A stretch of DNA of 64,000 nucleotides from Muricea muricata (Eukaryota > Cnidaria > Anthozoa > Malacalcyonacea > Plexauridae). The translations under genes and the position numbers were made by a program. The notes under the pieces are model-generated. The model was given only the letters and a program-made list of their open reading frames with translations. It was not told the origin of the DNA and made no database searches. The stretch spans positions 7,135,013-7,199,012 of the forward strand of contig OY979723.1 in NCBI GenBank assembly GCA_963855995.1. Reading direction: 5' to 3'. Shown here in pieces: positions 1 through 55,480 of the stretch. The stretch's first letter is position 1. Every line of letters begins with the position of its first letter.

Positions 1-2754
1 CCTATCAATGTACCAAAACGGACTTCCTGAGACACACAAGTAAATGCATATGGAAAATTACTAAATGAATTGTGCATTGAAAATAATTTAATTTCTTTAA
101 ATGGTAGAACCAAGGGTGATTTGATTGGTCAATTTACATGTAATACATACAATGGGGCAAGTGTTGTGGATTATGTCATTGTCTCACAAGATCTGTTTCC
201 ATTTGTGCAAAGTTTTTCGGTGCATTACCCCACAGAATTAACTCACCATTCCTGTTTATCTGTTGTAATGAGAATTGAAACTCCCCAAGAAGTAAAAGAT
301 ATTATGAGACTTTCAAATCACCCTGGCTATATGATTTGGAATGAAAATAAGAAAGAAAAGTTGCAAAATGTTATGTTATCAGAGAAAGTTAAACATGAAT
401 TGGACTCATTGTTTTTTTCTGATAAGACAACCAATAGTTCAGTTGACATCAACAAACTAGTTAGCGATTTTTCACAAATCTTGCGAGATACAAGCAAGAA
501 TATTCTACTCACAAAAAAACAAAGAAAACATGCAAATAAAAACACAAAGTCAAGGAAAAAGTGGTATAATGAAAGTTGCTATGCATTAAAAAGAAATGTA
601 CACGGTTTTAGGCTAGTTTGCTGGTACAGTACCCGACGGACCCCTTTATACGTCATACTTTTTTTTTCCAAAAAAAAAAGGAATACAAAAAAACTAACTA
701 GAAAACTAAAAGGACAATTTGAAAATGCAATGTTAGACAGAATTGAAAACCTATCTAATAAAAACCCCAAGGAGTTTTGGAAATTAGTGAACTCGATAAA
801 ATTGCACCAATCAACGGCAAAAACTAATGAAATACAAGCTTCTGAATGGTTTAACTACTTTGAAAATTTAAATGGAATACATCTTAAAACAGGTAAAGAT
901 AGCCATGAAGCTCAAATTATCAACGATTATGATCGATGGGCAATTCCAAAGAACGATACACTTGATAGGCCAATTACACCTCAAGAGATCTCTACACAAT
1001 AAAAAAACTAAAGAACAAAAAAGCTACTGCTAACGACTGCCTATCAAATGAAATTATTAAACTAGCTGTCAAAACGTTGCCCTCTTATTTTACAAGTCTA
1101 TTCAATACTATTTTAAGCCAGGGAAAATTCCCCTTTTCATGGTTTGAAGGTTTTATTGTACCAATATACAAATCTGGTGACGCTAGTGACCCGAATAATT
1201 ATAGAGGGATTTGTCTCAGCAGTTGTTTAGGAAAGCTTTTCACTCTAATAATGAATGCACGCTTAAATGATTTTCTGGAAGAAAATAAGATTATAAATAA
1301 ATGCCAAATATGCTTTCGCAGAAAACATCGGACAGCTGACCATTTGCTAGTGTTAAAAAGTATAATCGACTGTTATAAGCTGAAGCGAAAACCTATTTTT
1401 ACTTGTTTCATCGACTTTAAGAAGGCCTATGATGGTGTAATGAGAGAAGGACTTTTTTACAAACTATTGTTATGCGGTTGTAGCTAATCATTCTTAAAAT
1501 GTATTTTGGGCATGTACTCATCTGTTAGGTATTCTGTCAAACTACAAGATGGAACAACGCCATTTTTCAACTCGTTTATTGGGGTGAAGCAGGGTTGCAA
1601 TCTTAGCCCTACCCTGTTTAACATTTTTATGAACGATGTACCTAACTTATTTGACGACTCATGTGACCCAGTAAGATTGGGTAACACAAATTTGAACTGT
1701 TTACTTTATGCTGATGATTTGGTGCTTTTGTCGGAATCCCAGAAGGGTTTACAATCCTGTTTAACGAAACTTGAAAGGTATACCAATCGTTGGAAACTTA
1801 ATATCAATAAGAAAAAATCCAAAATTTTATTAATAGGGACACCAGCCCAGAGACGCACATACGCTACTACAAACTGGGTTTTTGACAGCAATGTTTTAGA
1901 GCACGTAAATGAATATTGTTATCTTGGCATAATGATCAACTCTTCTGGAACTTTCAAGAAGGCACTAAAAGCTCTGCATAACAAAGCTTTACGTGCTTAT
2001 CATTGTCTGTTTTAAAAAATTCTCTAATTTTGATAATGTACCAATTAATTTACTGTTAAAATTATTTTCAAGCATCATGGTAACTCCAATACTACTTTAC
2101 TGTGGCGAAGTTTGGGGCCCATACATGTTAGGAAAGATAACTACTTTTGAAATGTTTAAAAACAAAATGTTTAAGTTAACAAATGAAATAGAGAAATTTC
2201 ATTTGAAATTCTGTAAACGAATCCTTGGGGTACACTCAAAATCTACAAATGTAGCTGTTTATGCTGAATTAGGCAGACTGCCTTTAATAGTACCAATTTC
2301 TGTCCAAATTGTAAAATATTGGCTGAACATTATGGATTTAACTTTTAACGAAACTCTAGTAGGAGAAGCAGCCCATGTGTGTATGAGAATGAATTTTCAA
2401 CCAACACTTTATGTTAATTATGTACTTAAAATGTGTAAAACCAATGTCGATGATCTGGTGAAATCCACTACAAACCATCGCAATGCTCCGGCAAATTTTT
2501 ACCATTATTTAAAAGAATTATTGCATAATGAATTTGTTACTCACTTTAAAAACAAGATACAACAAAACAAAGAAAATGGCAAGTTTAGACTATTTAGAAA
2601 AGTGAAAGTGAACTTTAATTTCGAGTATTATCTTTCACAAGTGCAGAATGTAAAACATCGACAAGCTGTAACAAAACTAAGAATTTCAGCACATAAACTT
2701 CCAGTTGAAACAGGGAGATATAAAAATATTCCTTACAATGATCGAATCTGTTAA
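1..2754 (+). pseudogene. Decayed LINE ORF2 (endonuclease tail, reverse transcriptase), 5' end outside window
   Basis: The first ~250 bases encode the end of an APE-type endonuclease (NGRTKGDLIGQFTC, then a VVDYVIVS block). A linker follows, then a reverse transcriptase: NNYRGICLSS, FIDFKKAYD near 1410-1435, GVKQGCNLSPTLFN near 1585-1625 and the catalytic LYADDLVLL near 1705-1735. A C-terminal region runs to a stop at 2754. In this family the protein nicks DNA and copies its RNA at the nick. The reading is broken by a frameshift at ~1000, an in-frame TAA at 1485-1487 and a frameshift near 2010. Around 600-690 a poorly fitting stretch with homopolymers may be a small insertion. The clade is not resolvable by eye. 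Non-functional copy. Confidence 0.9.
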
Positions 2755-19168: not shown

Positions 19169-21112
19169 ATGAGCCGAATGTCCCGAAAAAATGGGACAAC
19201 TTGGTGCTCGGGACTTGGGTGTCACAACAACAAAACAAAAAATCCCGATATGGCTTTTTTCCGCTTCCCAAAAGACCGCGAAAGGTAAGTTGCGAATACG
19301 AATTAGCAATTCTGCTCGAGTTGAGTTTTTTAAGGCTGGAAAACCGAAACGAAAATATATAAAACAAATATATAATTTACAAATTAGGTCTAAAAAATGG
19401 GCAGTAAACAGACGACGTAAAGACTTAATTCAGAAAGATGCTGAGTATTTGTATCGTAACGTGAGGATCTGCAGCGCGCACTTTGAGGACGAAATGTTCG
19501 TAACGGAGTCCAAAAAAACCTTAAAAATTACAGCAATTCCAACCTTGTCCAATATACCAAATCCCCCATCAAGAATTGGCGTGAAATGCCGACTTGTCCG
19601 AAGGAAAGAAGCGCCGGATCTAACCTGTACAACCAGTGAGTGTTTTTTAATAGAAAAAAATCCTCAATTTGCATATTTTACTAGCGCATTTATGTAGCTA
19701 TTAATAATACAGGATTTTTTTATATAAACAAAATTGAACTTAAATGAAACTTTAATATTCTAGACAAGAAAAAGAAAACGTTTGACTCCGGCGACACTCA
19801 ACAAAATTCTGCAAATGAAGGTATAAACACGGCAGTTGCCTACTTGCCTTTATACAACACATGTACTAGTGGCATTTTAAGTATGTGTAAAAACTATTCT
19901 AATAATTTTAATAGGTTTTGGCTTCATCACCACACCAGCTCCAGCAACAACTTTAGCCTGCAAACGGACAATAATGTCATTGAAGGTGAACAGCTCATTA
20001 CTCTAGTTATATCTATCATGCTGTATACATGCATGAGAATTTACTTGCCAGAACTTGTGTGCCCTTCCCCTATCAGCTTTTGAATGCTTGCATAATAACC
20101 TGCTATAGTGGGTACTGCAGGCATGCATATTTGCAATAGGAAACAGGTGTGCATGTGGGTTACACCAATGCTTGTTAATCTTCCTTTGGATAGCCCTCGT
20201 AATATGAATTATATTTTTTGATACTCCTGTCTACTTACAACATTGTCATTTTGCAATTCTGCTCTAAATAGATCCTCTACATCACCAAGCTGACCAAAGA
20301 AATCCATTGTTAAATGTTGATGGGAAAAATGACCATGATGCTGATGGAAAAGGTTTAATTCCAAACACTGTTACATGACCTGTAGAACACATGATCAGTC
20401 AGTATTACAGTACATTAAAAACCTACACCAAATTATTATTGACAGATGCTGATCATGCAAGAAGGCAAGAAAAACAGGCAAAAAAAGTAAGATGCTACAA
20501 AATGAAAATTCAGAGGCAGAAAAAGCAGCTGCAACGACTTAGGCAGGCATTAAATATGAAAAAGAAAAAAAGGCCAATTGCAAAACCTGCAGTCCTTGAT
20601 GCATTAAGAACAATGCTTCCAGAGAGTACAGTGAAATTCATTGCCCAGCAAATCAATCTCAGCAAGAAGAAGAACAAAGGACAGAGGTGCTCAAATGAAA
20701 TGAAGTCGTTTGCCCTTTCACTCTACCACATCAGTGGCAAAGCATACCGAATGGTGGCAAAATGTTTCAGCCTGCCCCCAAGAAGTAGCATTACCAAATG
20801 GGTATCTGGTTTCCCTACATCAACGGGACTGCCTAAAATTGCTAAACAAATGATCACAACAAAAGTTAGTACCATGAGTGAATCAGGAAAGCTGTGCACG
20901 TTAACCATGGGTGGAGTTTCCCTGAAAGCCAACCTGCAGTATGATCAAGCAAAAGACGAAGTTGTTGGTGTGGAAGACTTTGGTGATGGCGAGAGATCAA
21001 ACAAAGTTGCTACAGCCGCACTTGTCTTTATGGCCAGAGGCATTAAAGAAAACTGGAAGCAACCACTTGGGTATGTTCTGGTGAATGAAGCCTGTCCCAG
21101 TGAAAGAATTAA
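19169..21112 (+). pseudogene. P-element-type transposase, 5' exons (THAP domain, coiled coil, start of RNase H domain)
   Basis: Exon 1 (19169-19284) gives MSRMSRKNGTTWCSGLGC and AFFRFPKDRER. Exon 2 (19388-19635) gives the THAP W (SKKWAVNRRRKDL) and ICSAHFEDEMF, completing C-x4-C...C-x2-H. Exon 3 is 19764-19820; exon 4 starts at 20272. All joins are GT-AG and keep frame. Exon 4 has a lysine-rich coiled coil (20460-20580), a helix-turn-helix-like region and the RNase H start [12 protein letters not shown]. That block normally has a catalytic Asp (MDG/DEM); here Gly stands in its place. It continues [29 protein letters not shown]. An in-frame TGA lies at 20376-20378. The protein continues at 31719 after a TTAA insertion. 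It cuts and joins transposon ends in the nucleus; this copy is dead. Confidence 0.92.
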
Positions 21113-21436
21113 AGTGGCACTAGAGCCGGAAAATGAATCCTAATTTTTTTACAAATATAGAAAGTATACAAGTAATTATGCAGACTCACGAAATTTCAGC
21201 TTTCAATTCCGCTTCTTTCCGTCATTTTTTTAAACCAAAAGACACGAATTTCACGTCCGCCATTACAGAGTCTTCAATTAGCGAGCACGGTTAACAAAAC
21301 CGGATGTGACGTCAAAGACTCAACACGCTGTGTCAGTCGCATAGTGAAATCATACAATTTTGTTTACGAATTACGAAATGTATTACTAATATTCCTTCGG
21401 TTTAGTTTTCTTTCGTTCGTTGTTTTTTAATTTACT

Positions 21437-31718: not shown

Positions 31719-33106
31719 AGCAATGCTATTCAAGATGAACGATGAACTAACATCAATGGGTTTACACGTCCAAACAATTGTATCCGATTTAGGATCAAAT
31801 TTTCAAAAGCTTCTACGAGAATTGAATATCACGCCAGAGAAACCATGATTTACACACAATGGAAAGAAGAGAATATATCTTTTTGACCCACCGCACCTTA
31901 TTAAAGCTGTCAGGAACAACCTAATAAACTATAAATTTATTTATGAAACAAGTTGCAAGCTCTATTTATGAAACAAAGGTTGCAAGCTGGGATGATATTA
32001 AAGTGGTATATGAGCGTGACAAGCAACAAACACTGAGATGCTGCCCCAAACTGACACAAAAACATTTAAATCTAAATGGCTTTCAAAAGATGAAAGTGAA
32101 GCTGGCAACGCAGGTGATGAGTCAAACAGTTGCTTCAACACTGTCTACGTATGTTGCACTTGGGGCACTACCTCCATCTGCTATTGGGACTGCAGAGCTA
32201 ATATCTAATTTTGACAATATTTTTTATTGCCTTAACAGCCCCTCCCTTAACAGTCCCAAGATTTATAAAAGAGCAGTTACAAAAGATTCACCTCACCACA
32301 AATTTTTCACAGATATGCTTAAATTCATTGCCTCCATAAAGGTGGTAGACAAACAAAGTGGGGAAGATGTGAAAAACAAGCTACGGTGCTTGAGAGGACT
32401 TACCATGACTTTGAATGGTTTGCAGGAATTGTGGAAAGACCTTCACCAACATCATTCCCTGGATTTTCTCATGACAAGGCGTCTCAACCAAGACCCTTTG
32501 GAGAACTTTTTTGGCCTCATCAGGCAGCTAGGGGAAAACTGTGACAACCCAAGTCCCATCCAGTTCACACGAGCATTTCGCAAGTTATTTGTGGATAATT
32601 TTTTGGCACCACTTTCAACTGGCAACTGTGCTGAAGATTTTGATACCTATTTGATTGCATCTCGCCCCAGCCAATCAGATTTATCCGCAGCAAATGATCA
32701 GAGGGGCCCCCCACAAATCCACGCAGTCAAAGACACAGACTATAAAACAAATGACATTGAACAAAACTTAGTCAGCATGAATGCATTAACTTATGTGTCA
32801 GGCTATTTATTAAGGAAGTGCCTTATTCAACATAGCTGTCCAATATGCCATCAAAATTATGTGACAAAAGATGTCAACGATAGTAGTCAGCTACTCTGCA
32901 TGTTCAAGACCTTTGAAGGCATAGGCAGTGCCGATGGATTAACAATCCCTAAAGAAACATTTGTAAAACATGTTTCTTCGATGGAGAGTACATTTGTGAA
33001 TGTGCTTAACAGCTGCATAGAAAGAAAAAACATAGGTAGTTACTTGTGCTCACAAATGCCAAAGCTACATGGAAGTGTGCAGTGGCCAAACTTTCCTGTA
33101 ATATAA
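31719..33106 (+). pseudogene. P-element-type transposase, 3' part
   Basis: This continues the reading from 21112 after the TTAA insertion. [18 protein letters not shown] leads into [16 protein letters not shown] (second catalytic Asp) and [16 protein letters not shown], then a long frame from 31943 with LNQDPLENFFGLIRQLG (acidic catalytic block), AFRKLF, ALTYVSGYLLRKCL and CPICHQNY. The block order matches the P-element/THAP9 transposase. Lesions: in-frame TGA at 31846-31848, and a ~26-base tandem duplication near 31939-31990 (atttatgaaacaa...gcaagct twice) that shifts the frame. The coding end is at 33106. Confidence 0.92.
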
Positions 33107-41300: not shown

Positions 41301-41655
41301 TAAGGGTCAGGGTTAGTGTAAACAAAGTTATCTATCTGTCTATCTATTTATCGCGATGCTTTGTCATCGTTCACAGATGAGAGTGACTCGATGTCTGGTT
41401 CTTGAATAGTCAGTTTTAATATCAAGGCTTCCAAACTGATCTAAACTCAAATCTATAGTAGGTGCTCTCGGACTACTTTGCGAAATAGAATGTGCATGCG
41501 TGATGGGAGATGATTGCCTGCCGTTTTTTGGATGTGATGGGATATATGATTACATATATGCATTCGTGTTGGGGCATGATTGCCTGCCGTGAGCAGAAAA
41601 ATTTTTTGGGATCACTTTAAGGCTTGGCTACCAAGCACGGAACTATACATTGAAA

Positions 41656-41795
41656 CTGGATTGATAACTACTGAACTTTATATTTCACTGGATTGACAAC
41701 TACTGAACTTTATATTTTACTGGACTGATAAACACTGAGCTTCAAATTAACTGGACTGATATCCACTGAACTTTATATTTTAACTGGATTGATAT
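41656..41795. repeat. Sub-terminal 33-bp tandem repeats of the Mutator-like element (left)
   Basis: Four copies of a unit like actggattgataactactga + actttatattt, with small changes. The mirror set is at about 50585-50725. Arrays inside terminal repeats are common binding arrays for Mutator-type transposases; binding here is inference. Confidence 0.8.
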
Positions 41796-41893
41796 TACAT
41801 TGCTATTTTACTTCCGCTTCTTGATTTCCTTCTATAAAATGAACGCGCCAAATTTATATTTCCGATCCGAATATTTAGATTTCGTCTTTGCAG

Positions 41894-44800
41894 TTTCGTT
41901 TTAATCCAATCTCTACAAAAAATCTTAACTTTACTGCCGAAAGGCATTCAAAATTTGGGAAATACTTGCTTTGCAAATAGTATTATTCAAGCTTTACTGT
42001 CTGTTTGCCGATACGGGCATGGCCTGCTGCAAATGCACCATAACAGGAATCTATGTGGTAAGAAGTAATCTGCTTATTATCTTTAAATTTTTTGAGATCA
42101 ATTTGGAAAGTTTATAGATTGGACCAAGATTTTGTAGGATTTCTTTAAAAAGCAAACGAGATACAGCGAAATCTTTAGCGTAAGTGTGAATCAGCAATAT
42201 AATTATTAAGATTTTGTTGTCCTATATTCATATATTTCTTAATCGTATATTCCTCAAAATGCTATTAAATGAAGCTCTGTCGTTTTCTTAACATTTTTGT
42301 CAAGTTGCAATCGAAAATACAAGAAAATGAACAAGTTATAGCGAATTCTTCGACATAGTGATAAATCTTAGCGTGTGAAGTACTCATTTCAAGTAAACAA
42401 TTTAACCGGAAGTACCATGTTTCATTAGCAAAAACATACGAACTAAATACGCTATAGCCTATAGCGTATGAAACCGTATTTACCGGTCAAGATACCCCAT
42501 ATAGTGTTCTTTCTGCGTGTTTTGGGCATTAGGCAATGCAGTAGGCTGCTTGCAGACGCTATTTATCGTATTAGTAAGCTTATACGTTCCGTCAGCAAAC
42601 AATGTAGCGTCTGAGCAGCCTAGCAATGCTGAAATCACTTGCTGTGAACGTGCGCAAGCAAAACGGAGAAAATACTGAAGATTTCCAATGTTTATATGCA
42701 AACATTTTCTAACATAACTTCAAAAATTACATGTATTCCGTGATATAATGCGTCATAGTTTTCTTGAATTAAGGTGGCTGTATAACTTCTCTTAAAATGA
42801 GAGCCTATTTACTGCTCTCATACCCTACAACGCGATGAAATCTGATTGTAGTATATGTGTATATACTTAAAAGATCTAACTGAAAATGTTTAGAAATTTT
42901 TTAAAATAGCTGACCGACTTCTTAATTTATTATTAAATACTTTTTATTTACGGACCACAGTTTTCAACTTTTTTTCTCAAAGACGTCGGTTATATCGAGG
43001 GGTGAATAACTCTGAAAAAAGCGTACGAAGATTTTTGGGATTAAAAAAATCCTGAGATTTGGGTTTGAAAAATTTGGGGATTGTCAGTGATTGTTTGGGA
43101 ATATTTAGGATTATTGGGGATTTTTTGAGATTTCTAAAGATTTTTACGGATTTTTTGAGATTTTAGCGGACTTGTATGGGATTTGGGATTTCGCGAAGTA
43201 TACGAAGATTTTTTTAGTTATCTACCCCTCGGGCTATATTATTGAGTACTGAAAGTCACATTAAATGCATTGTTTGTACTTGTGTCAGTTTCTTAAACAG
43301 TTGTCTGACTTTAGAAACTTTGCACAATCCTTGGATCCCTAGTTTTAATGAATATGATTTTATTAGCCTGTGAAACTTTTTCGCCTTTAGTTCAGGCGGC
43401 GCTTTGGTAGAGAATTGTAGTAATTTTAATGTGTTAGAATTTCTAAAATACATGACAAATTAAAAAGAAATCGTGTTTTAAAATGAACCTTATTTTCTTC
43501 TTTCCGGCATGTAAATCAATGACAATGACAACAGTTGGCAAATGAAAGTATTTTTGTTGTTAACGTCATAATATAATTAGTTTGAAATTTAACATGAACC
43601 ATACCACAAAAACATTTGTGTATGAAGACCTTAATACAGATGTAGTTTATGCATACAATTGCTTTTTCGTATATACCTGAATGGATGTTTAATTGACTTT
43701 ATTGTCAATTTATAATTACTATACAGGTTGTATATTGTGCAGCACTTCAGTGTTCATGGAAGGCTATAGAGCTCAAAATTCCAATGGTGTTTTACGGCCA
43801 GCTTTACTGATAGCACAATTACCAAAGATCAACGAGAGCTTTGGCCCTGGAATGCAGCAATGTGCCGCCGAGTTTTTCTTGGATTTCACGCGAGCATTGG
43901 ATACAACTTGTTCACAGTACTGCGAGAAGAAAATTATTCCGTCAAATTGCGATACTTCTTTCCTAAAATCTTTCCAATTTAAACTAAGGAGTGAGGTAAA
44001 ATTTCTTCTCTGTGGAAAAATTTCAAAATCCATCACAAATGAAAACCTGCTTCCGCTGCCTGTAAAAGAGGTAAAACGTCCTTAATCAATACATAAAGCA
44101 CGCTTTAAATTCGTCATTTTTTTGCTATTGATGCCAGACTGTATGCCCGTTGTACATTCTACCTATATTTCATGCGTGAAATATATTTCCCATATGGCTT
44201 GGTAAATCTTAGTAAAAGTGGTAAAACTTTCAAATCATTCCATTTGCAGGGAATCGACTTGAACACTTCAATAAAAATGTTGAGCGAGCCAGAACATTTG
44301 GATGATGAATATCAATGTGAGAGGTAGAATAAGTGGCTACAATTTAAAATGAAACATAGTACGAATGTCATGTAGTTATCGTGTCATGCGTACGCAAAGG
44401 GATGCACGGTCCCAGTGGCATAATATATAAGGCATTTTTTGCTGTAGAGCCTGGTTTCCATTTGGTCGTAAATGTTGTAAACATATCAAGCAGACCGATG
44501 TATTCGAGTGTCAGTACAACTCGACAGTAGCCAAATGCAGAGACCACATTTACGAGCAAATGAAAGCCAGGCTTAGCTAGCCATTTCTTTGTACAAATTT
44601 TTTATGAAACTAGTTGCTCGTAAATTTTTAACTATTTCTTAGATTTTACAAAAAAATTATCAAAGAATACTACAAATAATATATAATTATGTAGGTGCAG
44701 AATGAAAACGGAGGCACACAAACGTACTGTTTTCCAAGAACTTCCAGATGCTTTTTCCATTCAGCTGTTGCGGTTTTCCAATGAGGGAAAGAAAGTGAAA

Positions 44801-45060
44801 ACATTTGTTGAATATCCGATGTCACTTAAAGTGGAACAAGTGACATATGAAATGGAGGATGTGGAAATCATCTTGTGGCGGTTATTTCCCACCAAGGCAA
44901 AACTATCAAGTCTGGTCACTACACAGCATGCGTCCATCGTAATGGTGAATGGTATTATCTCAATGACGTACAAGTGTCAAAGATCTCCGATCTTACAGCA
45001 AAAAGCCAAGAGGCATATATTTTGATGTACGAGAAACAGACAATCAAGAAGATTAATACA
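41894..45060 (+). pseudogene. Ubiquitin-specific protease (USP/UCH) domain, four exons
   Basis: Exon 1 (start uncertain, donor at 42058) has the Cys box GIQNLGNTCFANSIIQALL. Exon 2 (43727-44070) joins in phase with CILCSTS and GPGMQQCAAEFFLDFTRAL, resembling the QQDAxEFL block. Exon 3 (44250-44323) ends DDEYQCER. Exon 4 (from 44695) continues CRMKTEAHKRTVFQELPDAF, SIQLLRF and, after a one-base loss near 44873, AVISHQGKTIK and SGHYTACVHRNGEWYYLND (His box). Cys and His are both present, and phases at all three introns agree. USPs remove ubiquitin from proteins; here a target in the transposon's life cycle is unknown. The QQDA Asp is replaced by Cys. It reads directly towards the Ulp1 domain. 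Broken by the frameshift in this copy. Confidence 0.88.
42988..43232. repeat. MITE with G-rich degenerate GGGATTTTTTGAGATT tandem repeat
   Basis: Ends cgaggggtgaataactctga and the complement-like ttagttatctacccctcg enclose about ten variants of (t)gggatttttgagattt. It lies in the first intron of the USP gene. Purine-rich on one strand. Confidence 0.65.
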
Positions 45061-45140
45061 GCAACCATGACAAATCCTTCACCACCAAGCCAATCTTCAT
45101 TTCGAATCTTCAACTCGCATCCACCTAATTACTACATCAA

Positions 45141-45829
45141 TTGCCCTCTACTTCAAATTGTTTGCCAAAGGTATGCCGTACGCAGAAAAGCGAAGAAAAG
45201 TTAGTATATACACAGCTTTCCGAATCCCAAGTTAACCAAGCAAAATTGAAAGCGTACGAAGACCACGCTTTTCCTAACCACTTAAGATTGAAAGGGTATT
45301 CTTCTGGTGATATTTTAAGTCTTCTTCCGGGTACGTGGTTAAACAATTTTGTTATGAATAATTATATGTGGCTTTTCGAAACGAAATATAAAGATAACAA
45401 TGTACGCACAATTAATAGCGATGTATTTCAGACAATGAAAATGCCTTCTATGGAGATATTTAAACGGAATCAGTACCAAACGCTGTACAATGAGACTCTT
45501 TCAAGTGATGTGACTTTAGCTCCAGCAAACTTTGGTATTCATAGGTGTCTGTTGGCTATTTTCCTCAATTAAGAATGATGATGTATCTCGATTCCTTACA
45601 TCACGGTGCTCATGCAAGAGAAAGCTTCCAGAGAATGCAGAACTTTTTGCAGTGCTCCCAGCAGTTTTCGAAGGAACAACATCCGCCGTTGGACTGGAAA
45701 GAGTGGCTTTTCTATAACATACCTAGTCAGGATCTCAGTCAACAGACGAATTCTGACGATTGCGGGGTATTTGTTTTGAAATGGGCTCAACACATTGCTC
45801 TTGGTTTCCCGTTGGACTTCACAAAATGA
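45141..45829 (+). pseudogene. Ulp1/SENP-type (C48) cysteine protease domain
   Basis: The frame from 45141 gives KGYSSGDILSLLPGTWLNNF and MNNYMWLFE, matching the Ulp1 'L..g.WLND..I..y' start. The His block reads GIHRCLLAIF, with Arg replacing the usual Trp after His. A one-base shift near 45560 restores PQLRMMMYLDSLHHG (Asp). Then LSQQTNSDDCGVFVLKWAQH supplies Gln and the nucleophile Cys. All catalytic residues are present. Ulp1-type enzymes cut SUMO or related tags. Further frame changes near 45150-45200 (from the USP) and 45830 (to the transposase) suggest one ancestral polyprotein. GTATGC at ~45170 could alternatively be a splice donor. Confidence 0.88.
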
Positions 45830-45835
45830 TATAGA

Positions 45836-48744
45836 ATCATTCAGATATTCCATGATTCTGGAAATATGTGCCGGAGATCCACGCCTACGAATTGAACTTA
45901 CATCAATAGAAAATCAAGTACGAAATGAAACTGGGGAAGAACATGCAAGTACCCGTTCCGAAAGTGAGGAGAAATCAAAGAAAAAAACGATGAACTCGTT
46001 GAAAAGGAAGTCAAAATCATGTTCATTGCAAGATTTCTTAGATTCGGATGACGATTTCCAACAAGCAAAGAAGGTAAAGCCCTCCTGTACCAAAGATTCT
46101 GCTGACCACTCTTCCTATCCAAACACACAAACCAAAAAAGTCCACTATATCTTCCATGATCACAGCTATGCTAAAAGTAAATCCAGCATCCAACAACCCA
46201 ACCCAAGCCCAGACTTACCATTGCATCTTAGAAACATTCTTCCACCAGACTACACCTACAAACTTTTGGAATATGAAGACCAAGAGAAAGAATATTTTAC
46301 AGGGGCACCAAAAAACGCTTTTAAGACAAGTTTCTCCATTTGCAACATAACTTCAACGGGGCAAGTTAAAACATGGGTTTCCGAACTGGCATCAACATCT
46401 AATATTAAATACGTCACGCAAGGCGGGTACCGACGAAAAGATGTGAAAGTCCTTTTATCGAAATGGTATATTTGTCAATGCCAAAGAAAAAAATTGACAA
46501 AAAAGCAACAGGAGGAAAAAAATAGAACACTAAAAAAGCGCCAGAAGAAGTTAGGAACAAATCCCCAAAACATAGATTCAGAACTTCATTTGTTGTCTAC
46601 AGCACGAGATAAGAAAACAGGCTGTCCCAGTAAGATGTCCATAAAGTTACTGCCGATAAACGCTGTCGAGAATATATGTCAAGTCCAATATAATCGTAGC
46701 ACTGATTGTTTTCACATTCAGACTTTTGGTCAAATCTCACCAGCGACGACAGAAACCTTTCACAATTACTTTGTTAGTGGCACGTCTGCTGCCGAAGCTT
46801 TTCACCATCACGAGTCGACACTCATGAATGATCCTTCCACGGTGACACTGCTTGCAAACAGGCGATTTTGCCCATCTGCAACTGACGTGAGAAGGATGTT
46901 TGAAAAGTGGAGAAAAGAAACAAAAGGAGCGCCCGATGGAGTGGGCATGTTTGAGGAATTAGAAAATATTATAAAGGACTACAACAAACGCCATTCACAT
47001 AATGGTGGTAAGTGCATTGTCCAAAGATATGAAAGAACGGCCTGCACAGAAAAACCATTAATCTTAGCTGTTGTTACTCTGTTGATGGCTAGAGTACATA
47101 CTTTGCCTCAGGCTGGAGAAATGGTATTCTTGGATGCATCGGCCAGCATTGACAGACACAACAATCCTGTTTATTTCCTTTGTACCCACCATCCTTCAGG
47201 AGCACTTCCCCTATGTGTGTAGGTTACATCAGATAACTCCCAACAGACGGTTACAAGCTGTTTGGAAAAAGCGAGAGATCTATTTCCGGATAGAGCGTTC
47301 GGTGGTCGTGGTGTTAATGAGGGACCAAAGATTTGCCTGACGGATGACGATTCGAGCCAAAGAGCTGCTTTGAAAACTACTTGGAAATCGACGAAATTAC
47401 TTTTGTGCGTATTTCATTTCCTACAAGCAACGTGGAGATGGTTATGGGATTCGAAAAACAAGATCGAACTGTGTGACCGTAAAGCTTTAATGAAATTTAT
47501 TCAGAACATGGTTTTTGCTGAAAGTGAACTCGATCTAAACACAATATTTGCCGGGTTAAAAGATGATCAGACAGCCAAAAAGTACAAAAATTTTTTAAAC
47601 TATGCCAAAAATTCAATGCTACGATAGTCAGAATGGGCTATATGTCTTCGAAAACAACTGTTAACTAGGGGCAATAACACGGACAACTATACTGAATCAA
47701 TGATTTTTATCTTCAAGTGCATAATTTTACGACGGATCAGAGCGTACAACTTGCTGGAACTATTTAAATTCATTGTTGAGGATCTCGACAGGTATTTCCA
47801 ACGAAAATTGCTATCCCTGGCTTTTGGTAAACCGCAGAATTTGCATATTGCCTCGCGATGTTTCGGGCAAAAAGCCAGCACTGTTGATTTGGCCACAATC
47901 ACACAAGACAGTCGCGAGCCTTTCAAATTCTATGTGCCAAGTAGGAAAGAAAAAGGAACAATTTACGTAGTTAACTCTTCAATTGGAATGTGTTCTTGTC
48001 CCGCAGGCGAAAATGGAAACAGCTGTCCCCACCAAGCTGCAGTCGTGCTTAAGTATGGCGTCTCTAACCACAACTTTATACCCACAAACCATATGGATAA
48101 GTACAAGCTTGCAGTTTTGGCCATTGGAGAGCATCCAAACTTGTGTGCAGAAAAATTTGCAGATATACACCAAAAGAAGTTTGAATCAACCAAACCATCG
48201 ATTACAGAACCATTTCCTGTCAACAAGAATCCAAACATACCGCTGAATGACAAACTCGACAACAATGAAAATGACTACACAAATCCAACAAGCGAATAAC
48301 AGGAGACAAGCTTAGATGATGTTATTAAATAAAGAAGTTTCCAGCGATATAGAATTTTGGTTGCGGAATGGAAATCCAAATTTTATAAAATGCTACAGTA
48401 AATACCTCGAAACCTATAAGAAGATTGTAAATAAAGCAAGAGGGCAAGCTCCAATAAATAGTCTTTCTTCTGCCTATATAGCATTTGGAAGAAATACAAA
48501 TTGCAAAATTTTACCAATACTTCATAATGCAAACAAAAGAATCAGAGTACAACCAACCACAATATCTCGTCGTCGATCAGGAATAAAGTCTTCCCTTGCA
48601 CAACCTTCCGGCCCTAAGCCTACTTTAAAGAAAAAGGACCAATGTACGATGCCGGCCAGGAAAAAAAGGAAAGAGTCAAACAGAAAGAGAAACCTGTCAT
48701 TCAATATAAACATAAACAACCCAAATACTGGTCACACACGTTGA
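45836..48744 (+). pseudogene. MULE-type transposase with SWIM zinc finger
   Basis: An acidic, lysine-rich linker with possible nuclear signals (SLKRKSKSC) leads to a WRKY/FAR1-like Cys region (WYICQCQRKK...KKTGCPSKM). Then comes the DDE core: LAVVTLLMARVHTLPQAGE, MVFLDASASIDRHNNPVYFL (first Asp), THHPSGALPL, ICLTDDDSSQRAAL (second Asp), LCVFHFLQATWRWLW. The SWIM finger CSCPAGENGNSCPHQ lies at ~47990-48030. The C-terminus is basic (PARKKRKESNRKRN). Lesions: in-frame TAG at 47220-47222 and 47625-47627 with frame open beyond each, and a shift near 48300. The TAGs may be mutated Trp or Gln codons. The enzyme would cut the terminal repeats; this copy is inactive unless stops are read through. Confidence 0.9.
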
Positions 48745-49756
48745 TACGAAGTTAATGCATTTTACGTTTCATGCCGTACAAAATACATCAAACAAAATCA
48801 AGTTACTCAAAGAATGTACTGATGTATGTATTAACATTACATTCACCAAGCAACCTGCCCTGCTGTAACAGTTGCTGGAATATTGTCTAAATAATGAACC
48901 ATAGCATAATACAATATTACTATGTATACAGCCAATTCAATTAAGGTAATCTTTCCAAAAGTACGGTAAACTTTGAACTATTAGCACACAAGGGATAATG
49001 AATTCCAATTGTTTATTTGGGTCCTGATACTCAAGTAATTACCTTTGTAGCAAATAAATTTAATATCACCGCATAATTTGTTGTCTTGTTGTTTTAGCTC
49101 ATATCTTGAGTTCACAAGATGTTGTTTTTCGGAGAATGTTTTTCTTATAGCAAATAAATTTGCCGTCATAAATTTGCTATGTGCCTCGACGCTGCTTCAA
49201 AAACATGATTCCAATTTTAGGAGTGAAAATAACCATTAACCTGTAATCTCGGGTGCACTCATAGTTTACAGTTTACACTTTGGGAAGGACAACCTTTACT
49301 GAAATAGCTGTATACATGTTTTAAAGATTGAAGCTGTTACTTATGAACATTAGATCTACCAAACTGCCTGTCTCAACTGCCAGAGTGCATTAACTTTTAG
49401 TCTTATGAATTCATATCTAACTTCACCACCACTAGCAGTCAGGCTTAGGTAGATGTGTATGATTTGCAATAAATTTGAAATAAACTCACATTCATGTCGC
49501 AAAAAATGAAATTTGGTCAGCAATATCTAAGTCAATTGTCAATCATCAAAGCTCTGTTAGTAATATATTAATTGCCATATATTATCACACCAGTATATGT
49601 GTTTAAGTGAACTTAGACATATAATAAATTGGGAGATGCTACTATAGTTGTAGCTTTGTAGCATGAACAAGCTTTATAAAAATACACAACCCATAAATTC
49701 AGGGTATATTACTGTGAGAATTATATATTTGGAAAATAATATTACTTGTATAGCTC
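48745..49756. other. Non-coding 3' part of the Mutator-like element
   Basis: AT-rich sequence without recognised frames. aataaa-like poly(A) signals occur (e.g. attgtctaaataatg near 48885, tgcaataaatttg near 49468). Nothing else seen. Confidence 0.5.
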
Positions 49757-50083
49757 TCGACCCTCACCTCTTCCCCCCCCCCACTTCTCATTGTTACACA
49801 CTGACACACAATGTTCCTCCCCCCACCACTTCCCATTGTTACACACTGACACAATGTTCCTCCCCTCCACCACTTCTCATTGTTACACACTGACACAATG
49901 TTCCTCCCCCCACCACTTCTCATTGTTACACACTGACACAATGTTCCTCCCCCCCCCCCACCACTTCTCATTGTTACACACTGACACAATGTTCCTCCCC
50001 CCCACCACTTCTCATTGTTACACACTGACACAATGTTCCTCCCCCCCCCACCACTTCTCATTGTTACACACTGACACAATGTT
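49757..50083. repeat. Minisatellite, ~45-bp unit, seven copies
   Basis: The unit is about ccccccaccacttctcattg + ttacacactgacacaatgttcctcc, with the C-run varying from copy to copy. Long frames exist on both strands only because the unit lacks stops. It lies inside the right part of the Mutator-like element. Confidence 0.95.
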
Positions 50084-50965
50084 GTTGCAGATGATTTTGG
50101 AATGAATTCAACATTCTCTTGGGGGGTGGGGTGGCAAATGAACTATACATAGCATTAAATTTAACTTCTTTAACTTCAAATCGTATGAGGTCAACTGTAC
50201 ACATGCTTTTGTAATGTAGTTTCCTTTTAGAACCAGTGTGTTTTTGCCAGTAAGCTCAAAGAAACATATATATTAAATAACGAAGAAGTACATGTGCTAA
50301 AATGTTCTAAAAGTATAAAGCAAAAGTACATTAAGTATATTATCTTTTGACCTTATAAATGATATAGAGTCACTAAATATTGAAATAAACAAATGAGAAA
50401 TCTATAAAGAACTGACTTTTCACTGAATGAAACAGCTTGCAAATAAAAGTACTCACCTCCTGTCATTTATTTTTCTTTATCTATTTCAGAAGTATATTTT
50501 TATTAAACGTAACAAAGCGTTCTTTTAACACTGCACGTGCACGCCAGCAAACGAAACGCAGGAAGTAAAATAGCAATGTAATATCAATGCAGTTAAAATA
50601 TAAAGTTCAGTGGTTATCAGTCCAGTTAATGTGAAGCTCAGTGTTTATCAGTCCAGTAAAATTTTAAGTTCAGTAGTTATCAACCCAGGAAAATATAAAG
50701 TTCAGTAGTTATCAATCCAGTTCAATGTATAGTTCCGTGCTTGGTAACCAAGCCTTAAAGTGATCCCAAAAAATTTTTCTGCCTGCCGTGATGGGATAAG
50801 ATTGCGTTACTACCGTGATGGGATATGATTGCCTATTGTGGTGGGATATGATTGCATATCCAATCACGCATTCATATTCTATACCGCAAAGTAGTCCGAG
50901 ATCATCTAATATAGGTCTGAGTTTAGATCAGATTGGAATCCTTGAAATTGAAACTGACTATTCAA

Positions 50966-52400: not shown

Positions 52401-53654
52401 CTATTCCAGATAACGCAGCATCATGTTATCGATTTTAGCTAATATACTGTCTTCGTTTGACACAAAATTCATATTTTCAGTCGTGTTCAAAGGTTCCATA
52501 ATAGAAATATCGCTTTGTGACGAGGGTTCATCCAGATCTTCCAAACTTATTGTACTATCACTGGACATGGAAAAGGTTTCTGCCCTTGAACGATATGCCG
52601 TAAATTCCGAGAATCTTTCCTCGGTTTGTTCCCGAATCGGCACGGTACTTTTGCGACAGTCGATAATTTTTTCATAGTTACTCACAGTTTCGTTATGATT
52701 ATCTGCCACGATTCGTTTGCTATCATTGGATGGTAAGGAGTTGTCTCTAATACGTCGTTCTTGATATCCATCAAGGAATGGTATACTAGAGCTACACGCA
52801 GGCTTGACTGCTACTTGACATCCTTCTGCTTCATATGGTATAAACAGGAATTTGTAAACACCTTTTCTTTTAACCTGAAAAAGTTGGAATTTCACCAAGA
52901 CAATTTAGTGCTAGAATGCAATTGTGATGAAGACTATATATACCAAGTTGATCTAGCTTTATATTTCAACAGACTTACATGGTACGAGCGTGCATGGTTA
53001 GCAAATTAGCATGCAATTAGAATGTCAATTTCCTCCGCCATTTCTGCTCATGTTGCATAATAATGTCGCTTTGTTTTCAGAACGTTCAATTCTGTTTTAC
53101 AGTTTCTGTTTCGGAAAAGACCTGCATATTGACAATACTATATCTTACCATGTATATTTTCGACTCCACCATATACAAACCTGCATGCGAACGTTAGCCC
53201 GAGGTCTTTTCGATACGGTTATATAAATTACCTAAAATATTGCTTGCCTTATTTCTGAATAAAACCGTCATAGATATTGGCAGATATTGCAACAGTTTCC
53301 AAGCCATTTCTTTTGACTTTTCTCTACTATAGTACATGAATGAACTGGACTGTGAAACAATATATAAAAAAAACACATGAGTCACCTTTCTAAGCATCCC
53401 CTTGCCGTAATAATTTCTCATGGCTCTGAACAGTTTATACTTGTGCATATTCGGTCTATTTTTAACAGTTCCCCACAGCTTGGCTAGTTCATCGGGGTTA
53501 TGTAATGTGAATATTCCTTCGCGTTTATTGGTCCAGCTAATAACTGACGAACACTCATCGTCTTCCAGCAAACCAAAGAGAAATTCCCAGAGATAAACTG
53601 ACTTTCTCGTACCAGAATGCGAGTTGCTCCTTTTTGCCGTGGGTCGACTTGTAC
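52401..53654 (-). CDS. ETS-domain transcription factor, two 3' exons
   Basis: The upstream exon (53654-53386) encodes TSRPTAKRSNSHSGTRKS then the ETS domain: LWEFLFGLLEDDECSSVISW, NPDELAKLWGTVKNRPNM, YKLFRAMRNYYGKGMLRK. A GTGACT donor follows. The last exon (52874-52401) completes the winged helix with VKRKGVYKFLFIPYEAEGC and then a ~140-residue Ser/Glu-rich tail to a stop at 52401. The join is in frame. The two recognition-helix arginines (R-AM-R) are kept, though the usual RYYY is RNYY. ETS proteins bind GGA(A/T) sites in the nucleus. It resembles ELF/ESE-type ETS domains, but the subfamily is uncertain. Upstream exons, possibly beyond 53.7 kb, were not identified. The only strong host gene here. 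Confidence 0.88.
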
Positions 53655-53699
53655 CTTTTAGAATGATATGAGTAATCATGAAAGTGTTGCACATTATAC

Positions 53700-55480
53700 T
53701 TACAACCGGACACTAACTAGTTTGTGCAAGAAATATTTAAAACAACCTTGTTCACAATCACAGGGCCTTCATGGTGCAACGCGAGGTAGGAAGCCCTGGT
53801 AAAGGCTAGTTGTTACAGGAACAAATTTTCCAATACAGTTGGAAAATTTTCCTGCTAACTTCTCGCGTACGTAATTTCTGCCACCATACGTTTCACCACA
53901 AAGATACCCAAGGAACGAGGTCCTATTAAGATACATATAATACATATCATTGGGATATGTATTAAAGCTGTATAGCACATCTTGGTTTGAGTTTCGAACC
54001 CAAAACTACGTCATTTTTTAGACTTGTGGCCATGCTGGATGGCCCCACTTGATCAGCAATGCTATAGATTTCTGTTACAGGGTATATAGTTCTCATTTTG
54101 AAATTAAAATAGAAAATCAAAGAAATCAGTTTTCCTTGGACTGACTTCAATCTTACTTTTACTTTTGCATCCTGTATATTACAGACGTATCTTATATATG
54201 TAAACAATACGCTACCGCTCGCGCTTGCGGTGTACGAAATTTCCACGCATTTTTCAGCAGCCTATGGTGTAATTTGACAGAAGATGCCTGAATATATTTA
54301 ATGGGTATACCAGCCATATGAACCCTGTAGAGTGTGTATAAAAACCGAACCTTTCAACAACACCAACAAACCGAACCTTTTCTACAACATGTCGATTAGG
54401 AATTCTGTCAATCCAGTATTCAGACATGTAATTTGAAAGCAGCTAGCTGTTATGTCAATTAAATATCATCTTTTTAACTTTACAGCTTTCAATAATTCTC
54501 ATAAAGTTGTGGTACCAGCGTGTGCTTTATTGTTTTTAATTGGCTGCACGATTATATGACCCAGGCCTCTGCTATAAATGAGTGTCAGGAAAAAGGTTGT
54601 CCAGAAGTCTAGATGACTCTAGGATTAATTGATATATTGATATGATGATACATTTCTTAAACAGTATTCCTGTCAATTTAAGTATTGCTTTTAAACAGAT
54701 CAATTGTATTCCCATAATTTATATCTTCTAGATTTAAGAAACTTAAAGAGATTATAGGTGAAAGGTACATAGCTCTAGTTATTTACGAATGCGAAATTTA
54801 TGCACATCCCAACTCAATGTTAATTTTGTTTTGCTTTTTGCCTGTGCTGTGAATATAAGAAGTTAAAAGAACAACGTGTGGAAAAATAAGACCAGTTCTA
54901 TCTTGAAGAAGCAAAACTTGAAAATGAGATGAGAGAAGAAAGAGAGGATGAACTTGAGATATTTGGTGCATGCTTATATCATGAATCATCCTAGTTCCTC
55001 AAGTTCTTTTCCCCAACCACTTCCCAACAACGAGTCTTTTATACAAAATCAGTACAGGAACGATTTTTTAAATGTGTTTTCAAAAAAACTTAGATGGGAA
55101 CCTATTTTCATTATAATATTTAAACTGTTGCCTTTTTTAACAACAATTATTGTTTCTTTTAGATGTTATGTTTACAGTTTAAAACAGTACAATATTTAAA
55201 GATATTATTGACATAGTTAGCCATACAGTATATTAACAACAGTTATAAGTTAATAAATAAACGAGTGAAAAAGTCTTAAATTGTTTTAGTGGCTGAAGCA
55301 ATCTGCTAGTACTCCCAACCATTTGCAAATTATGATCAGCAACAAACCAATATAGGAAACAGCTACGGATGTGATGCTCGAAGTCGTACTTGGTACGTTT
55401 GTACACTTTACGTATTACATTTTCGAGAGAATTGGCAATATACGGTTTGCTACATTAACAAAATACAATGTGTGCATTAG
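53700..55480. other. No gene seen (possibly intron or promoter of the ETS gene)
   Basis: Short frames only (e.g. 53769-53978, 53962-54246, 54948-55199), none with recognised domains. It could be upstream intron sequence of the minus-strand ETS gene; this is inference from position. Confidence 0.4.

Follow-up and report, generated by a model that had tools for sequence, protein, structure and literature searches.

Can a DNA transposon carry, fused to its own transposase, enzymes predicted to remove both ubiquitin and SUMO, and if so, what would it gain? The question is raised by a Mutator-like element (MULE) of the anthozoan Muricea muricata, which lies in the 64,000-nucleotide stretch of DNA analysed here (the window; assembly GCA_963855995.1, contig OY979723.1, corresponding to C8 7135013-7199012 in our searches) and for which an initial annotation had proposed that a ubiquitin-specific protease (USP) and a SUMO-type protease (Ulp1) are joined to the transposase. 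Searches of the genome (453 Mb, 74 contigs) upheld and sharpened this proposal, as both sister copies and relatives indicate that the single gene of this MULE family almost certainly encodes one polyprotein, predicted to run in the order USP, linker, Ulp1/SENP, linker, DNA-binding region, DDE core (RNase H), SWIM finger and basic tail.

The evidence is carried mainly by uninterrupted sister copies. A 480-amino-acid frame of the window gave 33 matches in the genome (40 candidates scored), and four other places lay in open frames of 1457–1554 amino acids; the gene models of these copies (A to D), based on splice-site signals and homology, comprise four exons with GT-AG introns in phases 1, 0 and 2 and predict proteins of 1648 (A), 1686 (B), 1725 (C) and 1725 (D) amino acids, a frame change in copy A removing the usual last residues. 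Copies A and B are 97.4% identical over their longest match and C and D 97.7% over ~10.2 kb, the members of each pair lying on different contigs, and the likeness of C and D indicates fairly recent movement. In all four the last exon alone encodes the end of the USP, the entire Ulp1, the DNA-binding region, the DDE core, the SWIM finger and the tail, so this part of the fusion is independent of splicing; the USP (Pfam UCH) pieces lie on successive exons whose phases agree in the four models, as had been read from the window. Because the same order recurs in the four uninterrupted copies (two similar pairs) and in relatives from other records, chance is excluded as the source of this predicted domain order. 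An origin of the USP and Ulp1 exons in a separate host gene or a second insert, a possibility raised by the initial annotation itself, is ruled out, since the USP tail, Ulp1 and MULE parts share exon 4 in four copies. At the tips (GCAG...CTGC) these elements are flanked by perfect 9-bp target-site duplications (TSDs), in keeping with the ~9 bp (8–11) of Mutator elements, namely ACGCGGTGG (A), ACACGGCAA (B), AGCGCGCGT (C) and CACGCGCGT (D), as is a further long copy, E (TCCCGTAGG); no TSD was found at the tips of long copy F.

The window copy is a decayed member of this family (Table 1). The initial annotation had placed it at 41402-50965, between inverted repeats of ~410 bp; the repeats are real but composite, their outer ~190 bp belonging to a separate palindrome, and the tips (GCAGAAAAATTTTTTGGGATCACTTT starting at 41593, its complement ending at 50782) together with a perfect TSD correct the span to 41593-50782. 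The wider borders were rejected because a query with the outer arm matched only the arms at this locus and because the TSD adjoins the inner tips. The left palindrome arm gave two matches in the genome, both arms of this locus (the search skips very common words, and the result does not prove rarity), and the MULE is inserted into this separate, older palindrome. The terminal inverted repeats (TIRs) of ~230 bp align with 216 identities, 12 mismatches and 4 gap positions, those of copy A being ~59 bp long. Two halves of a degraded non-LTR reverse transcriptase flank the locus (RVT_1 1.9e-6, just below the cut-off).

Table 1. Features of the window, with the evidence for each (positions in the window; HMM, hidden Markov model)
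Feature	Position	Strand	Evidence or remarks
MULE transposon, decayed copy, 9,190 bp	41593..50782	+	tips, perfect 9-bp TSD, paired tips 9,190 bp apart
Left TSD CTGCCGTGA	41584..41592	.	fits the family's C-S-G-centred preference (37 sites)
Right TSD CTGCCGTGA	50783..50791	.	perfect 9-bp copy of left TSD
Left TIR with ~32-bp internal subrepeats	41593..41823	+	alignment to right TIR
Right TIR	50554..50782	-	alignment to left TIR, subrepeats
Left arm of older palindrome, outside MULE	41402..41583	+	86% complementary to right arm over 111 bp
Right arm of older palindrome, outside MULE	50792..50965	-	86% complementary to left arm over 111 bp
Exon 1, open frame (candidate start), USP Cys box NLGNTCFANS at 41952	41838..42057	+	Pfam UCH 3.3e-6, local USP HMM 3e-10, donor GTAAG
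Exon 2, USP middle	43727..44070	+	Pfam UCH 1e-4 (below cut-off), local USP HMM 4.7e-20, same splicing in sister copies
Exon 3, USP before second CxxC (YQCER)	44250..44323	+	same exon and phase in A-D; no own profile match in window
Exon 4 start, USP remainder, His box SGHYTACV at 44911, one frame change	44695..45128	+	Pfam UCH 1.3e-13
Exon 4 continued, Ulp1/C48 protease, frame changes	45129..45900	+	PF02902 6.1e-7; local Ulp1 HMM 3.6e-39, 8e-31; relative P0010 PF02902 4.4e-13
Exon 4 continued, linker, DNA-binding region, MULE DDE core, SWIM finger CSCPAGENGNSCPH at 47991	45901..48299	+	frames, Pfam, local HMMs
Basic C-terminal tail, different frame	48316..48744	+	local SWIM_C HMM 2.6e-61; tail conserved in relatives
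44-bp C-rich tandem repeat, seven copies, in 3' part of element	49772-50083		
Broken retrotransposon with reverse transcriptase	31-2754		RVT_1 4e-22
P-element/THAP-type transposase pieces (THAP, Tnp_P_element, TNP-like RNase H, GTP-binding insertion domain)	19173-21143, 31928-33106		
ETS domain frame, perhaps host transcription factor exon	53194-53712	-	PF00178 1.6e-24

Domain assignments in the window rest on a Pfam scan of its frames with curated cut-offs and on local HMMs for USP, Ulp1, DDE and SWIM. Pfam UCH was matched by four frames (3.3e-6, 1e-4, 1.4e-4 and 1.3e-13; 1e-4 and 1.4e-4 narrowly miss the cut-off), while the MULE (PF10551, 1.8e-4) and SWIM (5.5e-3) matches both fell below theirs; the DDE core, with its first aspartates at ~47124 and ~47334, and the SWIM finger do lie on the strand of the proteases, as had been claimed. 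The Ulp1 triad that had been described from the window stands in part: DCGVF is found in 45740-45772 within the Ulp1 region, but 'GIHRC' is a degraded His-Trp motif (NHWC in P0010, the closest relative spanning Ulp1), His-Arg replacing His-Trp, and the His-Asp-Gln-Cys site is incomplete in this copy. Frame changes occur near 44865 (USP), 45170 (USP/Ulp1 linker), 45555 and 45828 (Ulp1) and ~48330, and stops at 47220-47222, 47625-47627 and 48297-48299; a single reading frame through USP, Ulp1 and MULE thus exists in the four sister copies and not in the frameshifted and stopped window copy. That copy probably died recently, given that P0023, an open frame found on a contig in the databases, matches it at 99% identity across 299 columns of the DDE region.

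Outside this genome, three protein searches gave 31 close proteins (at least 45% identity) and 16 distant ones (27–37%), after three fungal USPs (P0014, P0015, P0017) that matched through the USP domain only had been dropped as relatives; a profile search aimed at more distant kin yielded a smaller set than the searches with single sequences, with P0016 as its one additional relative. One of the searches was filtered for lengths of ~465–1480 amino acids, so that longer members from other phyla may have escaped it. Among the 31 close frames, the USP tail and Ulp1 are both present in eight; ten begin past the USP and contain Ulp1, and 13 begin past Ulp1. Co-occurrence of the proteases in related genomes, suggested as a check on the proposal, is therefore seen in the 8 of 31 frames that show both, the others starting too far downstream to show the USP. 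The only named close relatives are anthozoan (Dendronephthya gigantea, Oculina patagonica and Pocillopora damicornis); of these the Dendronephthya protein alone reaches Ulp1 and none of the three reaches the USP. The USP Cys box, on its separate exon, is reached by no database frame of the family and was seen in this genome only. Matches to PF10551 exceeded the cut-off in P0005 and P0011; those of P0004, P0006, P0010 and the window did not reach it.

None of the 16 distant MULEs (P0034-P0046 and P0048-P0050; sea urchin, spiders, aphids, psyllid, loach and thrips are among the sources named) matched the USP or Ulp1 profiles, Pfam also having been run on ten of them. In M. muricata itself, MULE parts were recognised in copies H, I, J and K, and neither protease profile was matched at 1e-3 in the fetched regions (J and K partial); copy H matched PF10551 at 6.9e-12, and H and I have 9-bp TSDs. 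A tree of the DDE core with 48 rows separated 30 protease-side from 18 MULE-only rows with 100/100 support; the protease side comprises 11 rows in which USP and Ulp1 are both seen, seven with Ulp1 only seen and 12 starting after Ulp1, and each of its five sub-lineages has at least one member in which both proteases are seen. The rows exclude P0001, P0014-P0017, P0032, P0033, P0047, P0050 and the genome's own E, F and J, as well as P0007 and P0031 (aligned piece too short). The simplest reading of this topology is a single origin of the fusion before the protease-side clade radiated. A second MULE family was also observed in the genome, with two elements (L022 on C10 and L023 on C9; ~5.1 and 6.1 kb) that are 99.7% identical over 4,895 bp, have ends near CGCAATTTTCCCTTTCGTAAACGG and 9-bp TSDs (GTCGGCACC, CTCCCCTTC) and show no protease match.

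The terminal repeats were followed through the genome with a 25-base tip pattern, which gave 55 exact sites and 104 with at most 3 mismatches (a reversed-pattern control gave 0). Of the 104 sites, 100 were listed, and pairing among these yielded seven long pairs (8,704–12,764 bp), 37 short pairs (428–563 bp) and 12 unpaired tips, sequence being retrieved for the paired ones. The long pairs correspond to the window copy and A to F, and all seven contain USP, Ulp1, DDE and SWIM pieces by local profiles, two of them broken: E has Trp in place of Gly in the USP His box and F has no recognisable Cys box. The short pairs are non-coding and form one ~440-bp family of miniature inverted-repeat transposable elements (MITEs), 37/37 matching another member over >350 bp. 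Against six coding elements (A-D, F and the window copy) each of the 37 matched at least one, the longest matches being 84 bp with F, 79 bp with A/B, 55 bp with C/D and 27 bp with the window copy; the likeness of the MITEs to the coding elements is accordingly confined to the ends, where it is greatest with the A/B/F type. Copies of the terminal repeats lacking the proteases, which the initial annotation had named as contrary evidence, hence do exist and are more numerous (37 short against seven long), but they are MITEs sharing at most 84 bp of ends, and 7/7 long pairs carry the proteases. The transposase of the protease-bearing MULEs presumably mobilises these MITEs.

The MITEs have perfect 9-bp TSDs in 34 of 36 parsed cases (35 with at most one mismatch). 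After removal of duplicated loci, 37 target sites (31 MITE and six long) were compared with the 9-mers of the window as the only background: 32/37 contain CpG (within positions 4-6 in 30) against 17.9% of window 9-mers, 23 are exactly NNN-C-S-G-NNN, and C stands at position 4 in 34 and G at position 6 in 30. The insertion site of the window copy agrees with this CSG/CpG preference. Copies C (C2:64.82 Mb) and F (C2:5.63 Mb) lie in opposite orientation at almost the same position within near-identical flanks, as if two copies of one repeat had been hit at the same CG-rich site. A genome search with Ulp1 gave 21 matches at ~13 loci, two of them without a MULE match (C3:52.94 Mb, where a family tip lies ~5 kb distant, and C1:84.4 Mb); the survey of USP content covered loci other than the decayed ones on C48 and at C1:82.1 Mb, C3:52.9 Mb and C1:84.4 Mb. 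The Ulp1 match G000:C1:84407811-84408140 is isolated, with 28% identity, one stop and no MULE match nearby.

In an alignment of 17 proteins, all 15 rows that span these positions retain the Ulp1 His-Trp and the YLDS/FLDS Asp, and all 16 that span them retain the QQ and DCG motifs (Gln and Cys); in the USP the Cys box is kept in 4/4 and the GHY and fourth critical Asp in 10/10. The USP has the Cys box, His box and CxxC pairs of a C19 domain, the boxes being present in A-D. Its third residue varies, being Ser in A-D, P0001, P0004 and P0005, Asp in P0006, P0010 and P0011, and Asn in the window. As reported by Keijzer et al. 2024 (PMC10867860), Ser occupies this position naturally in 5.4% of human USPs, and USP1, 15, 40 and 48 rely on the fourth residue; these findings make activity of the USP plausible despite its Ser. 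The USP of copy C had USP36 as its best PDB match (3e-29, residues 5–309; 102 distinct solved sequences at ≤1e-3), which extends across the entire catalytic domain, and the Ulp1 domain SENP1 (9e-16). An AlphaFold2 model of P0008 (mean pLDDT 57, pTM 0.35) was relied on for its Ulp1 part only (block means 76–93, residues 31–160), and Foldseek placed SENP2/SENP1 first (2.5e-10); a match to the ISCth4 transposase, which we take to be an IS256 member, was weak (7e-6; TM 0.32 of the target, root-mean-square deviation 18.9). Relatives and sister copies therefore combine the His-Asp-Gln-Cys site with a predicted SENP fold, and the nearness of SENP1/2 in sequence and modelled fold is suggestive of SUMO specificity.

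Nonsynonymous divergence (dN) between A and C reached 0.87 and 0.60 in the two linkers, compared with 0.25 in the USP, 0.17 in Ulp1, 0.175 in the DNA-binding region, 0.12 in DDE-SWIM and 0.25 in the tail; synonymous divergence exceeded 2 or was not computable except in the second linker (1.4), and no ratio was used. By this measure, the USP and Ulp1 are conserved between lineages almost like the transposase core, and the linkers are not. Between A and B the nonsynonymous-to-synonymous ratios, based on few changes, were 0.35 (USP), 0.26 (Ulp1), 0.41 (DNA-binding), 0.31 (DDE-SWIM), 0.44 (tail) and 1.4 and 1.1 (linkers). Plant MULEs are described as capturing host sequences, Ulp1 included (PMC13317346), and the protease exons could in principle be such a chance capture (transduplication), hitch-hiking without function; given the uninterrupted frames, a protease dN between A and C far below that of the linkers and a fusion shared by five sub-lineages, we regard this as highly improbable and rejected it. 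Alternatively, the domains might not cut at all and serve only as readers, whose binding to ubiquitin or SUMO chains would guide the transposase to chromatin bearing these marks or to DNA breaks. Purifying selection would be expected on binding surfaces too, but pure readers need not keep catalytic residues, and those of both enzymes are kept in the spanning rows; such a role is rather unlikely.

Since the modules share one frame and are separated by long, fast-evolving linkers, the proteases might instead cut their own chain into USP, Ulp1 and transposase units in the manner of viral proteases. USP and Ulp1 enzymes cleave after a folded ubiquitin or SUMO tail. No ubiquitin-like domain was found by Pfam at E ≤ 0.1 in P0004, P0005, P0006, P0010 or P0011, so that a ubiquitin-like cassette between the modules was rejected for these five relatives, and the proteins have no GG motif of the linkers in common: QGGY, the most frequent one, lies in the DNA-binding region and is missing from P0011 and P0006. 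Self-processing is disfavoured on these grounds, and we consider it improbable.

On balance, we lean slightly towards the reading that both proteases are active isopeptidases that benefit the element by acting locally, where the transposase sits. Catalytic activity of both is likely, because both active sites are constrained, and local action is suggested because the proteases are fused to a DNA-binding transposase; whether local deconjugation would favour transposition we judge to be evenly poised. The DDE core, TSDs and inverted repeats are those of standard Mutator cut-and-paste transposition. Tethered to the transposase, the USP and Ulp1 would act wherever it is bound, and could remove ubiquitin and SUMO from the transposase itself and from host silencing or repair proteins at the element ends; the transposase would be stabilised and SUMO/ubiquitin-dependent silencing or repair signalling locally erased, so that expression and completion of transposition would be favoured. 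A hydrophobic run after acidic residues in linker 1 (DDVIITK-like), common to A-D, P0001, P0004, P0007 and P0016, presumably resembles SUMO-interacting motifs and, in the A-D type, would fit action on SUMO-rich chromatin. In worms, SUMO is reported to promote Argonaute-directed silencing (PMC8131101). All steps beyond the conserved catalytic residues are ones that we infer.

Several observations weigh against this reading of two active, locally acting isopeptidases. Copies A-D have Ser as their third USP residue; the DDVIITK-like run is absent from P0005, P0006, P0010 and P0033 and partial in P0011 and G; and between C and D the protease domains show four nonsynonymous and no synonymous changes, too few to weigh but not in favour, next to no nonsynonymous and one synonymous change in the DNA-binding and DDE-SWIM regions taken together. 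The proteases might also act mainly on DNA-repair signalling after excision and not on silencing, as proposed for the Ulp1/OTU transposases of Ginger1 (Bao et al. 2010, PMC2836005). The present data do not separate repair from silencing, and we hold a main role in repair to be fairly unlikely. A more specific and tentative version of the preferred reading, possible but in our view somewhat doubtful, is that the transposase is a tethered double eraser, clearing ubiquitin and SUMO alike from the chromatin of its own ends and thereby escaping SUMO/ubiquitin-dependent silencing.

If this were so, the transposon would disarm two host tagging systems from within its transposase, by an anti-silencing device unlike the hypomethylating VANC of plant Mutators and retained while an apparently anthozoan clade of MULEs radiated. 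Why SUMO and ubiquitin proteases sit on several unrelated DNA transposons is a question discussed in PMC2836005, and one genome here offers a comparison set of fused proteases, uninterrupted copies, protease-free related MULEs and MITEs with the same ends. The initial annotation knew of no precedent. No description of USP and Ulp1 together on one transposon was found in titles and abstract openings, a survey that leaves subscription literature and Repbase Reports mostly outside its coverage, but Ulp1 in animal Mutators and C19 with another transposase have been published (PMC2836005). The combination of both in one transposase may therefore be undescribed, each half having precedent.

Among known systems, the protease-free MULE/SWIM transposases (H and I; aphid, spider, sea urchin and loach proteins) share the DDE core and, in most, a match to the SWIM region, and differ in that none of the 16 proteins, nor H or I, matches the USP or Ulp1 profiles. 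Zisupton/KDZ transposons, which have a SWIM finger and, in some members, Ulp1, form a different superfamily, and we know of no USP in them; the Helitron transposase is not of the DDE type. Helitron proteins such as Helinoto (PMC7599744) resemble the present family in placing a deubiquitinase-like domain in a DNA transposon, although this domain is of the OTU type (PMC2836005). Closer in superfamily are the Mutators with an element-borne Ulp1/C48, described from Hydra and lancelet (PMC2836005) and from plants, including KIU/Vandal and others (PMC13317346); the descriptions in these two sources mention no USP, and it is by those descriptions, not by Repbase entries, that these elements are set apart, the Ulp1 of KIU being placed in the VANC gene (PMC13317346). 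A Trichomonas protein likewise combines a USP-type Peptidase C19 with a transposase, which is of the transposase_11 family, and Ulp1 is not mentioned in its description (PMC2836005). Ginger1, most listed families of which are from Hydra, is like the present family an animal DNA transposon whose transposase is joined to a protease of the ubiquitin or SUMO type (PMC2836005). Pfam scans of the window frames and of five relatives gave no retroviral-type integrase family, whereas the Ginger1 transposase is described as Gypsy-integrase-like, with a C-terminal protease that is OTU or Ulp1 'but not both' (PMC2836005).

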